Source: Aminobacterium sp. MB27-C1 (GTDB lineage: Bacteria; Synergistota; Synergistia; Synergistales; Aminobacteriaceae). Taken from it: a DNA stretch of 64,000 nucleotides. The translations under genes and the position numbers were made by a program. Below the pieces are notes generated by a model that did no database searches, had not been told where the DNA came from, and saw nothing but the letters and a program-made list of their open reading frames with translations. Below are positions 11,576 through 16,000 of this stretch, piece by piece. Location of the stretch: positions 992,001 to 1,056,000 of the forward strand of contig NZ_CP133089.1 in the NCBI RefSeq assembly GCF_030908405.1, in the 5' to 3' direction. The first letter of the stretch is position 1. Every line of letters starts with the position of its first letter.

Positions 11576-12386
11576 ATTTTTACTTGTCATTTTACTGTTG
11601 GTTATTTGCCCCATTAAAGTTTTTGCAATGGACTTATGGGTCACATCTCCATGGCTTTCAGTTATAGCTCACTTTATGGGTGGGGTCTTTATAAACGTAA
11701 AACCCATAGGCCAATGGACAGAAGATGGCATTGAAAAAAAGGTATCTGTCAAAAAACTGCCCAAAGACGGTCCTTTTTTAGCACTGGATTATAAAAATGC
11801 GCAAAAGTATGGGCTTTCCTCACCAAATTTTAAAAACATTCATGTGTTATATTCTCAATTACCCTTTCCGCGGGAAGAAATAGATAGGTATTTTACAGAC
11901 CCTTCCGTTCTTCCTTTTATAGCGCAAAGAATTCTCAATGTTTTTTCTAGCCTTGATTCAGAACATTACTCTTTTTACCAACGACGGTTAGCTGAATTTC
12001 AGGGACGTTTGGAAAGTACTGTTTATTTAGGAAGGCAACTTTTACAAGGAAAAGAAGTATATAGCCTTTCAGAAGACTACCTTGAACTGCTGAAAGCAGC
12101 GCAATGTCGCATTATTCAACCTGAAGAAACATTGCGAAAAGCGTGGGAAAAAGGAGAGTCTTTAGATCAACTCAAAGAGAAAATCAAAGAGTGTTCTCAA
12201 TTGAATATTCCTGTTTTATATGATCATAAAACGCCAGCTCCAGTGAAAAAAGTTTTATTGGAGAGTAAGTCTACGGCAGTTATTCAATTAAAATATCCAA
12301 CAATAGGGCAAGATCTGATCATAGCTCTCTACGACCAGTACTTAGCAATATGGAATATAGCTACTCCAGGAGATACAAAATCTTAG
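11535..12386 (+). CDS. Secreted TroA/ZnuA-like protein of unknown function
   Basis: The 283-residue product has an N-terminal signal sequence (hydrophobic core [17 protein letters not shown], then a likely cut before MDLWV). The rest resembles the fold of metal-binding ABC transporter proteins: [15 protein letters not shown] at the start, a central helix with [16 protein letters not shown], and a late [17 protein letters not shown] segment like the second lobe of ZnuA. The His ligands and His-rich loop of true ZnuA are not evident, and no permease or ATPase gene is adjacent. The ATG at 11535 has GAGGA five bases upstream and overlaps pyrR; an ATG at 11547 is possible. The stop overlaps that of the convergent MFS gene. 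Confidence 0.6.
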
Positions 12387-13579
12387 CTTTCCGATGTAGC
12401 TGATTGGTTGTTTTTATTCTTTACAAAGAAAAGAAATGGGATTGTTGCTGAAAAAATAAAGAAGCTCAGCACATGAAATGGACTCAATGGAAAGTTTGAT
12501 TCAACGATAAAACCATCTAGAACTGGCCCCGTCATCATCCCCAGACTAAAGAAAATATTGAATACGCTCATTGTTCGCCCGCTACCAAATTGAAAACTGT
12601 TTTCGGCAGCTATAGCTGCGAGAGATGGAGCAGAGAGTGCGTGCCCCACGCCAAAAATAACACTCGCTATGACGAGACCTGTAAAAGATTCAAAGAAAGG
12701 TACGATGATAAAAACACACCCTGAGAAAATACCACCAACAATTATCAGGTGATGACGTGAAATTTTGTCAGAAAGTTGCCCAAAATATCGTTGTAAAACT
12801 CCCGTTGTAACGGAGTTAAGGGAGAGGATTATGCCTATTTGTGAAAAAGAAAGAGAGTAACCAGAAGCAAGAAGAGGAATCATCATAAGCATTGTTCCTC
12901 GACACATTGCAAAACAAAATTGGTAATAAAAACAGGTTCGAAGAGCGGCATTTTTTATCATGCCTCTAATTGCGGGAAGCATTTTCCCATTAGACTTAGA
13001 GCGACTTGGAATCCCGATGGGAAGCTTTTTAATAACCATGAGAAGGGCAATAGTAGTGAGTGTCGTCATAAAATAAAAAGGCACGTGCCATCCTATATGA
13101 TCAGTAAGAACTCCACTGATAAGAGGTCCAAAACCTACGCCTAAAAAGAGAGCACCCTGAAGTGTACCGAAAAATATGCCTTCTTCGCCTTTTTTTGCTA
13201 TATCAGCGCCTATTGCCATCGTTATAGGTACAACAAAGGCGGAACCCAGTCCATGGAAGAAACGTATAGTAATAAGAGAAAGTGTAGTATCAGCGTGTAC
13301 ATAAGCGAGGGAAGCTAATGAATAAATTAAAAGACCAAGCGTTAAGAGGCGTTTTCTGTCAAAACGTTCAGCTAACTCTCCACTGAGAATCATTCCGCCT
13401 GTTCGCGCGAATGAGAAGGTGCCGAAAACCAGACCAAGAAGAATGCCACTAGCACCAAGCTTTGATGCATAGACAGGAAGAATGGGACTAATAACACCAA
13501 CGCCAAGCATGGCGCAGAATAAAGACAGAGAGAGCGTAAGTAAAATATAGTCTACGTGGGAGGAATGAGTTTTATTCAT
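12383..13579 (-). CDS. Major facilitator superfamily transporter
   Basis: The product is a polytopic membrane protein of 398 residues with about 12 hydrophobic segments. The MFS loop motif appears as GELAERFDRKRLL between helices 2 and 3, and a weaker repeat, FGQLSDKISRHHL, in the second half. The overall look is that of a proton-driven drug or sugar efflux carrier; the substrate cannot be predicted. I chose the ATG complementary to 13577-13579 with AAAGGGG upstream. A longer in-frame start at 13633 would run through the selD terminator and is rejected. Its stop overlaps that of the TroA-like gene. Confidence 0.85.
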   Translation of the reverse strand: MNKTHSSHVDYILLTLSLSLFCAMLGVGVISPILPVYASKLGASGILLGLVFGTFSFARTGGMILSGELAERFDRKRLLTLGLLIYSLASLAYVHADTTLSLITIRFFHGLGSAFVVPITMAIGADIAKKGEEGIFFGTLQGALFLGVGFGPLISGVLTDHIGWHVPFYFMTTLTTIALLMVIKKLPIGIPSRSKSNGKMLPAIRGMIKNAALRTCFYYQFCFAMCRGTMLMMIPLLASGYSLSFSQIGIILSLNSVTTGVLQRYFGQLSDKISRHHLIIVGGIFSGCVFIIVPFFESFTGLVIASVIFGVGHALSAPSLAAIAAENSFQFGSGRTMSVFNIFFSLGMMTGPVLDGFIVESNFPLSPFHVLSFFIFSATIPFLFFVKNKNNQSATSES

Positions 13580-13591
13580 AAAATGCCCCTT

Positions 13592-13624
13592 TAAAAACTC
13601 CCTCATGTTTTCACATGAGGGAGT
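13592..13624 (-). terminator. Terminator between selD and the MFS gene
   Basis: On the minus strand a perfect 12-base-pair stem (13624-13613 with 13608-13597) with a GAAA tetraloop is followed by a run of T. It ends the selD transcript just before the MFS ribosome site, so the MFS gene must depend on read-through or a very short promoter region. Confidence 0.88.
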
Positions 13625-13651
13625 AAAAATCACAACTTATTGTTTATTGTA

Positions 13652-14698
13652 CTAAAGATTATGAACAATTTCAATCTTACCTTGCCCTTCAGAAAAATAA
13701 CCAATACACGTGCTTCTTTCAAACCCTGCTTCTTTCAATGCGTTCAGCATTGCCGGGGCATGCTCTTGATTCAGAGCTAACAATAAGCCGCCTGACGTTT
13801 GGGCATCATACATCATGTCTACACGTTCAGCGGGGAATTCTTCTTTTTCTGTGACGTGATCTTCATATTGAATTCTATTATTATATGTGCCTGCCGGAAT
13901 CAACCCGCTCTCTGCAAGTTCAATGACACCTGGAAATAACGGGACGTCATGGAGACCCAGCGTGACATTCAACGTTTTTGCTGAAAGCATATCTAGAGTA
14001 TGTCCAATAAGCCCAAAACCGGTTACGTCTGTACAGGCATGAACATGATCAAGTAATTCTTGAGGAATGACGAGTGGAATATTATTAAGAGTAGACATCC
14101 ATCGCATGGCCTCTTCTGGTCCTTTGGGATCCACAATCATGTCCGCTTTTATTCCTGTTGCAATGACACCACTTCCTATAGGTTTTGTTAAAAGTAGTGC
14201 GTCGCCTGGTTTTGCTCCGACTACTTGCCATGGATTCGATCTTGCAACTTCTCCGTATACAGCAAGTCCATATTTAGGTTCGTCATCTTCTACACTATGA
14301 CCTCCTACTAGAAACGCTCCTGCTTCTCTAACTTTTGCATAGCCTCCCTCAAGCACTTCCCGTAATATCTCAATATCTAACTTTTTTACGGGGAATCCTA
14401 CTATATTCAGGGCAACAATAGGGCGTCCGCCCATTGCAAAGACGTCGCTAATAGAATTACACGCTGCTATTTCTCCCCATTTTCTTGGGTCATCTACAAT
14501 GGGAGTAATGAAATCAAGGGTAAGAACTCCAAGGCGTCTGTCATCAATAATCCAGAGTGCTGCGTCTTCTCCAGATGCCCATGTTGAAATAATACGGTCG
14601 TCTCGTACCGAAGGTATGTCTCGAAGTATTTTTTCAAGGTCCGCCGGACCTATTTTGGCGGCTCACCCACTTGTTTTAGAAAGTTCAGTTAATCGCAT
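13652..14698 (-). CDS. selD: Selenide, water dikinase SelD, selenocysteine-containing
   Basis: SelD makes selenophosphate from selenide and ATP, the selenium donor for selenocysteine tRNA. The frame opens at the ATG complementary to 14696-14698 (GAAGGGAGG upstream) and runs 348 residues if the UGA at codon 12 (complement of 14663-14665) is read as selenocysteine. The context is KTSG-Sec-AAKIGPADLEKI, which aligns with the family's catalytic Cys/Sec followed three residues later by the essential Lys (Lys15). No other stop interrupts the gene. Later motifs include DVFAMGGRP and TDVTGFGLIGH. A SECIS-like hairpin directly follows the UGA. Starting only at the downstream ATG (14434) would lose the active site. 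selA, selB and the Sec tRNA gene are not in this window. Confidence 0.93.
14638..14665 (-). promoter_or_regulatory. Selenocysteine UGA codon and SECIS-like hairpin in selD
   Basis: After the UGA (14665-14663) the minus-strand RNA pairs CCGCC (14661-14657) with GGCGG (14645-14641). An outer GGU/ACC pairing is possible across the UGA. The 11-base apical loop AAAAUAGGUCC contains the GGUC bases typical of the SelB-binding loop in the E. coli fdhF SECIS. Position and loop fit a bacterial SECIS element; this is inferred by eye without energy calculation. Confidence 0.72.
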
Positions 14699-14889: not shown

Positions 14890-16000
14890 ATGGCAACGAT
14901 TCCAAACTCTACAGTATTGGAGGAACTGCGTTCCTTAAAAGAAGAACTGCAGGAAAGTCTTTGACCTCGTTAGGTTGGAGGGAAATAAAAATGAACTTGA
15001 AAGTAAAACCCTTGCTCCAGATTTTTGGGGAAGTGACGAGGCTAAAAAGGTAACGAAAGATTTGGCGCGATGTCAAGATAGACTTGATTCCTGGAGAAAA
15101 ATAGTATCTGAGTTTCAAGAATTGGAAACTATCGTGGAAATTTTACATGAAGAAGACGACACAGATCTTCAACGAGAATTTGACCAGCGTGCGTTGGCTT
15201 TTAAAAGAGAAATAGAACATCTGCAACTCATAGAACTTCTCAGTGAAGATTTTGACCAGGGGAATGCTATTGTTACTGTTCATGCAGGTTCAGGTGGATT
15301 AGATTCTCAGGATTGGGCAGAAATGCTTTATAGGATGTACGTTCGGTGGTTGGAACAGAACAAATTCCGCTTCAAAATTCTAGATCTGCTACGTGATGCC
15401 GAAGGTGGAATCAGTAGTGTGACCTTGTTTGTAGAAGGGGATTATGCTTATGGATATTTAAAATCTGAGAAGGGGGTTCATCGGCTTGTACGAATATCAC
15501 CTTTTGATTCGGCAGGTAGACGACATACAAGCTTTGCCTCTGTAGATATAACGCCTGACCTTCCAGAGAATGAAGATATAGAAATACGCCCGGAAGACAT
15601 TAGAATCGATACGTATCGTTCCAGTGGTGCAGGTGGTCAGCATGTTAATATGACAGATTCGGCAGTACGCATTACCCACTATTCATCGGGGATTGTCGTT
15701 AGCTGTCAAAACGAACGGTCACAGCATATGAACAAAATGGTTGCTATGCAAATTTTAAAAAGCAGGCTCTATGAAAGAGCCCTTCAGGAACGTCGGGATG
15801 AGATGGATGCCATTCAAGGTGAAAAGAAGGAAATAAGTTGGGGCAATCAGATTCGCTCATATGTTCTCCATCCTTATACTCTTGTAAAAGATCACAGAAC
15901 AGGGTATGAAACAGGTAACATTCAAGCGGTTCTTGATGGAGACCTTGATGATTTCATAATGGCTTATTTGCGATGGAATAAATTGTCTGGCAATAACTAA
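14890..16000 (+). CDS. prfB: Peptide chain release factor 2 with programmed +1 frameshift
   Basis: RF2 releases proteins at UAA and UGA. The ATG at 14890 (AAGGAGTG upstream) opens 24 codons ending in CTT, then UGA at 14962-14964. Skipping one base and reading GAC onward gives a continuous 369-residue protein. The shifted frame gives VRLEGNKNELESKTLAPDFW, a normal RF2 N-terminal region. Later motifs are the GGQ catalytic loop in RSSGAGGQHVNMTDSAV and the SQNERSQHMN-type segment (here SCQNERSQHMNK). Low RF2 stalls at its own UGA and favours the shift, so the gene regulates itself. It is not a pseudogene. Confidence 0.95.
14951..14965 (+). promoter_or_regulatory. RF2 programmed frameshift site
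   Basis: The slippery sequence CTT-TGA-C (14959-14965) matches the conserved RF2 recoding site. It is preceded by an internal Shine-Dalgarno-like AGGA at 14951-14954. The zero frame ends at the UGA; the +1 frame continues with GAC CTC GTT. Confidence 0.93.

Follow-up and report, generated by a model that had tools for sequence, protein, structure and literature searches.

A selenocysteine-containing selenophosphate synthetase in Aminobacterium and the bacterial SECIS element predicted to decode its UGA codon

Selenide, water dikinases (SelD, selenophosphate synthetases) that themselves contain selenocysteine (Sec) are a textbook family. The described members (TIGR00476, with the motif UxxK; Aquifex, 2yye/2zod; Clostridia and Deltaproteobacteria) share with the protein analyzed here a match over the full length, the AIRS and AIRS_C domains, a UGA codon followed by a SECIS element, and the UxxK motif itself, which is located in the N-terminal selenium-binding loop. 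The constraints given for bacterial SECIS elements (bSECIS) are a loop of 3-9 nt with a G in the first two positions, a stem of 4-16 bp, a distance of 16-37 nt from the UGA and a minimum free energy of at most -7.5 kcal/mol (PMC13188914). A 2016 study described Synergistetes as a phylum rich in selenoproteins (PMC5029168), and for Aminobacterium sp. MB27-C1 (GCA_030908405.1; 2,427,830 nt), the main text of the 2025 deep-Sep paper gives a count of 13 selenoprotein genes (PMC12013277); SelD is almost certainly one of them. Enzymes like the Sec-SelD discussed below are thus known, and this very one has almost certainly been recorded before, the correction of its hairpin aside.

In Aminobacterium sp. 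MB27-C1, selD occupies positions 13652..14698 on the (-) strand of the window, i.e., the whole 64,000-nucleotide stretch of DNA that was analyzed. Read with TGA as a residue, the gene encodes 348 amino acids, with a single in-frame UGA at codon 12 (14663..14665, (-) strand) and Lys at codon 15; the predicted N-terminus is MRLTELSKTSGUAAKIGPADLEKIL... The protein matches the curated selD model TIGR00476 (E 8.7e-101, 337 bits at a cut-off of 125) and, over nearly the full length, the solved chains of E. coli SelD (3u0o, E 2.9e-60) and Aquifex SelD (2yye, E 2.9e-57), and contains both PF00586 and PF02769. The UAAK stretch (residues 12-15) aligns with GCGCK of E. coli SelD and GCAAK of Aquifex SelD, so that the UGA is opposite the catalytic Cys/Sec of the known enzymes, with Lys three residues on; together with the full-length matches, this arrangement assigns the protein to SelD.

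The SelD protein was searched against the genome of MB27-C1 and those of 60 relatives (61 genomes of a single order, several of them drafts). SelD was found in most of these genomes, and the matches that extend to the N-terminus contain TGA. The site was extracted from 50 loci (the MB27-C1 gene and 49 relatives), 49 of which, including MB27-C1, could be read automatically; all 49 have TGA at the homologous codon, and the UGA of selD is therefore not a chance occurrence. The 50th locus (L069), with a more divergent SelD, likewise reads ...CAGUMAKL..., and no Cys version of SelD was detected among the 50 loci. A single SelD match, and no second SelD, was found in the protein search of the MB27-C1 genome. 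The preliminary description of this DNA, which gave no strand for selD, had placed the UGA at the active-site Cys/Sec position of the family and the essential Lys at codon 15, and had considered SelD itself to be a selenoprotein; the alignment and the 348-codon translation agree with the former two claims, and the conservation of the UGA at a known Sec/Cys site in the order supports the third.

A few genomes depart from the common pattern. In three genomes (G009, G025, and G039), selD, tRNA-Sec and SelB are all absent together, as expected for a lost trait. In five others, namely G042 and G051 (one genus, 91-94% complete), G019, G003, and G058, tRNA-Sec and SelB are present without a convincing SelD match; these cases are probably gaps in draft genomes, yet the two small genomes of the same genus agree with each other. 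The draft genome G010 encodes Sec-SelD and SelB but tRNA-Sec was not found in it, an observation that counts against the explanation favored here.

Genes for the Sec machinery are all encoded in the MB27-C1 genome. The tRNA-Sec gene (C1:1059518-1059612; 73.2 bits, anticodon TCA) is located about 3.5 kb past the right end of the window, whereas selA and selB (571 and 361.9 bits, respectively) lie together at 963894-967174, about 25 kb to the left of the window. Divergent from the selA-selB pair is yedF, a sulfurtransferase-like gene of selenium metabolism (L049 6095-6703 = C1:963095-963703, (-) strand; 188 bits). Across the 61 genomes, tRNA-Sec was detected in 54 and SelB in 55. In-frame UGA codons are present in seven further selenoprotein genes of MB27-C1, two for GrdA and five for GrdB. 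The GrdB frames remain open beyond the UGA and reach about 430-470 codons, and these genes have hairpins 17-18 nt from the UGA with GG in the loop (e.g., CGUUGC[GGU]GCAACG); for the two GrdA genes, only weak hairpins were found. The scan of the window for other genes with a recoded UGA left selD as the only convincing one, and the genome search for PrdB retrieved only the GrdB genes, below the cut-off. The search for FdhA yielded one formate dehydrogenase-like gene, also below the cut-off and without an in-frame stop in the matched stretch; this gene (C1:397790-399076; L157, L158) has an open frame of 680 codons, with no UGA in the stretch concerned. The selA, selB, and Sec tRNA genes that the preliminary description had proposed to look for are accordingly in place, so that its refuting case of a genome lacking Sec tRNA or SelB does not apply, and its expectations of a complete Sec-insertion system and of additional selenoproteins, including amino-acid reductases, both hold.

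Two hairpins compete for the role of the SECIS element downstream of the selD UGA. One is AGGUCC[GGC]GGACCU (14637..14651, (-) strand), with a stem of 6 bp and a triloop that starts 17 nt after the UGA; this loop is shorter than that of the familiar E. coli GGUC type. The other, put forward in the preliminary description, consists of a CCGCC/GGCGG stem with an 11-nt loop (AAAAUAGGUCC) and begins one base past the UGA (14641..14661, (-) strand); its apical loop contains GGUC. The two structures are mutually exclusive because they share bases, and in the MB27-C1 sequence, they are nearly isoenergetic. The CCGCC/GGCGG hairpin can be folded on paper as claimed and has the lowest energy of all folds of the short stretch, about -8.6 kcal/mol, a value hardly out of the ordinary when compared with shuffles (z about -1 to -2); the GGC-triloop hairpin, AUAGGUCC[GGC]GGACCU, reaches -8.8 kcal/mol with the terminal U-U forced and -7.9 kcal/mol as an isolated 6-bp stem. 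Single-sequence folding is misleading here: in short stretches, it prefers the CCGCC/GGCGG hairpin. Comparison among relatives separates the two. In 48 distinct sequences, 93.8% of the pairs of the GGC-triloop hairpin are kept, versus 17-57% when the structure is slid by 1-3 columns, whereas the CCGCC/GGCGG hairpin is paired in 78.3% of the cells versus 77.8% in shuffles. Every pair is intact in 29 of the 49 SelD genes for the GGC-triloop hairpin (7-bp version) and in only 10 of the 49 for the five pairs of its competitor. With its GGC loop, 6 bp, 17-nt spacing and -7.9 kcal/mol, the GGC-triloop hairpin satisfies all bSECIS constraints; the CCGCC/GGCGG hairpin falls outside them in loop length (11 nt), in spacing (6 nt from the UGA), and in the position of the first G, which is the seventh of the loop (PMC13188914). 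In the conserved structure, GGUC is not in the apical loop but forms part of the 5' arm of the stem. The CCGCC/GGCGG hairpin is thus broken in most relatives, and its role as the SECIS element is largely refuted by the comparison; that it nevertheless serves as such in MB27-C1 appears very improbable. Judged by conservation, the SECIS element of selD is the GGC-triloop hairpin.

Additional evidence comes from the codons that overlap the stem and loop. No match in Rfam was obtained anywhere in the window at gathering thresholds, and the choice of the SECIS element was thus not settled by a curated RNA model. For the GGC-triloop hairpin, no pair swaps were counted as the letters of the stem hardly vary, and for the CCGCC/GGCGG hairpin, the covariation count was at the level of chance. 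Because an invariant stem gives no pair swaps, constraint was assessed at the codon level. The codons GGT, CCG, and GCG (Gly-Pro-Ala over the stem and loop) are used in 46 of 49, 46 of 49, and 44 of 44 SelD genes, respectively, and are the top three of the 74 conserved four-fold codons of selD (0.94-1.00, with the next at 0.66 and a median of 0.43); although the relatives are not independent, the same relatedness applies at all 74 sites. Elsewhere in selD, GGT accounts for only 12% of the Gly codons. By contrast, the Ala codons that make up the CCGCC arm (the 5' arm of the competing hairpin) vary freely at their third positions, which counts against that hairpin as the SECIS element. In four loci (L058, L059, L060, and L068), the letters of the stem do change, and there the hairpin is found again precisely one codon away, its GGA loop lying 20 nt from the UGA (in L068, the shifted hairpin was read by eye and has one mismatch), and in three of the four, the shift is accompanied by a change from Asp to Glu. 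These loci represent, on alignment, a natural case of a SECIS element changing register. The synonymous freezing and the shifted registers together support the assignment of the GGC-triloop hairpin as the SECIS element. The selD locus is a clean worked case: single-sequence folding favors a hairpin that is plausible but incorrect, and a comparison of 49 SelD genes singles out the one that is likely to be the actual SECIS.

The UGA itself could be read in other ways. Standard ORF calling yields only a 260-aa ORF (13652-14434) downstream of the UGA, as though the codon were a true stop or a sequencing error and selD were a pseudogene or restarted at the ATG of this ORF. The product of such a restart would lack both the catalytic residue and Lys15, the codons past the UGA are under strong constraint at the RNA level, and the identical UGA in all 49 readable SelD genes, with the protein conserved on either side, refutes the reading as a stop or an error, leaving it hardly any probability. 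The in-frame UGA codons of the GrdA and GrdB genes would also be compatible with a genome-wide reassignment of UGA to an ordinary amino acid, e.g., Trp or Gly. However, UGA terminates 11 of the 53 long ORFs of the window and is otherwise an ordinary stop; the recoded genes belong to known selenoprotein families; tRNA-Sec with the TCA anticodon, SelA and SelB are present; and release factor 2 (RF2), the release factor for UGA, is encoded beside selD with a regulatory UGA of its own. Reassignment is, accordingly, just as far-fetched.

The best explanation, which we hold with near certainty, is that selD encodes a selenophosphate synthetase with Sec as the catalytic residue 12, the UGA being decoded by means of the GGC-triloop SECIS. 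What can be read from the genomes is the open frame with its conserved UGA, the presence of genes for the machinery, and a hairpin whose codons are constrained; the steps that follow are predicted on this basis. SelB, together with Sec-tRNA-Sec and GTP, would bind the hairpin shortly downstream, so that the UGA at codon 12 is read as Sec. The resulting SelD would convert selenide and ATP to selenophosphate, which SelA is expected to use for the formation of Sec-tRNA-Sec, and the latter would be needed for the synthesis of both more SelD and the selenoproteins of the glycine reductase type. Given that no second SelD was found, these steps would form a self-dependent loop, on which nearly the whole order appears to depend. 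Apart from the missing tRNA-Sec in G010, the points noted against this explanation are the modest stability of the GGC-triloop hairpin in MB27-C1, its near equality in energy with the competing fold, and the lack of pair swaps in its stem.

Compared with Sec-SelD of other phyla, nothing substantial differs. Among the matches listed outside the order, there are at least 62 readable Sec-SelD, most of which allow hairpins that have a loop starting with G and occupy various registers, 16-21 nt or about 33 nt from the UGA, and at least 11 Cys-SelD with no consistent hairpin; the scan pattern included the Cys/Sec motif, and the ratio of the two forms is thus not an estimate of their frequencies. In Synergistales, the triloop is mostly GGC at 17 nt. 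The hairpin resembles other bSECIS in its stem, the 3-nt loop starting with GG, the 17-nt distance from the UGA and an energy of about -8 kcal/mol, and differs from them in that its sequence hardly varies within the order. As far as the gene comparison goes, the Sec-SelD of MB27-C1 is real but ordinary, all related bacteria with a readable site being alike. At the level of annotation, the consequence is that standard ORF calling shortens selD to 260 aa.

Finally, the neighborhood of selD deserves mention. The divergent neighbor is prfB, the gene for RF2 (14890..16000, (+) strand), in which the sequence CTT TGA C (14959-14965, (+) strand) is the site of programmed +1 frameshifting; prfB is outside the selD mechanism itself, and the two UGA-recoding genes adjoin one shared intergenic region. 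The same adjacency is seen in three members of the genus and in L042 and L044; in several other loci, a birA-like gene is inserted between selD and prfB, and prfB is at the edge of the locus. A more far-reaching interpretation would hold that Synergistales have a single SelD, which is in every case a selenoprotein with no Cys fallback and makes selenium activation dependent on its own product, that this self-dependent loop acts as a selenium-dependent on/off switch, and that the recurrent neighborhood of prfB, whose product competes for UGA, ties termination to Sec decoding; this interpretation seems unlikely. Immediately after selD, in the same orientation, comes a gene for an MFS transporter (12383..13633, (-) strand), which is considered a neighbor only; such a gene is also found downstream of selD in two relatives from the genus and, by translated frames, in L024, L027, and L040.
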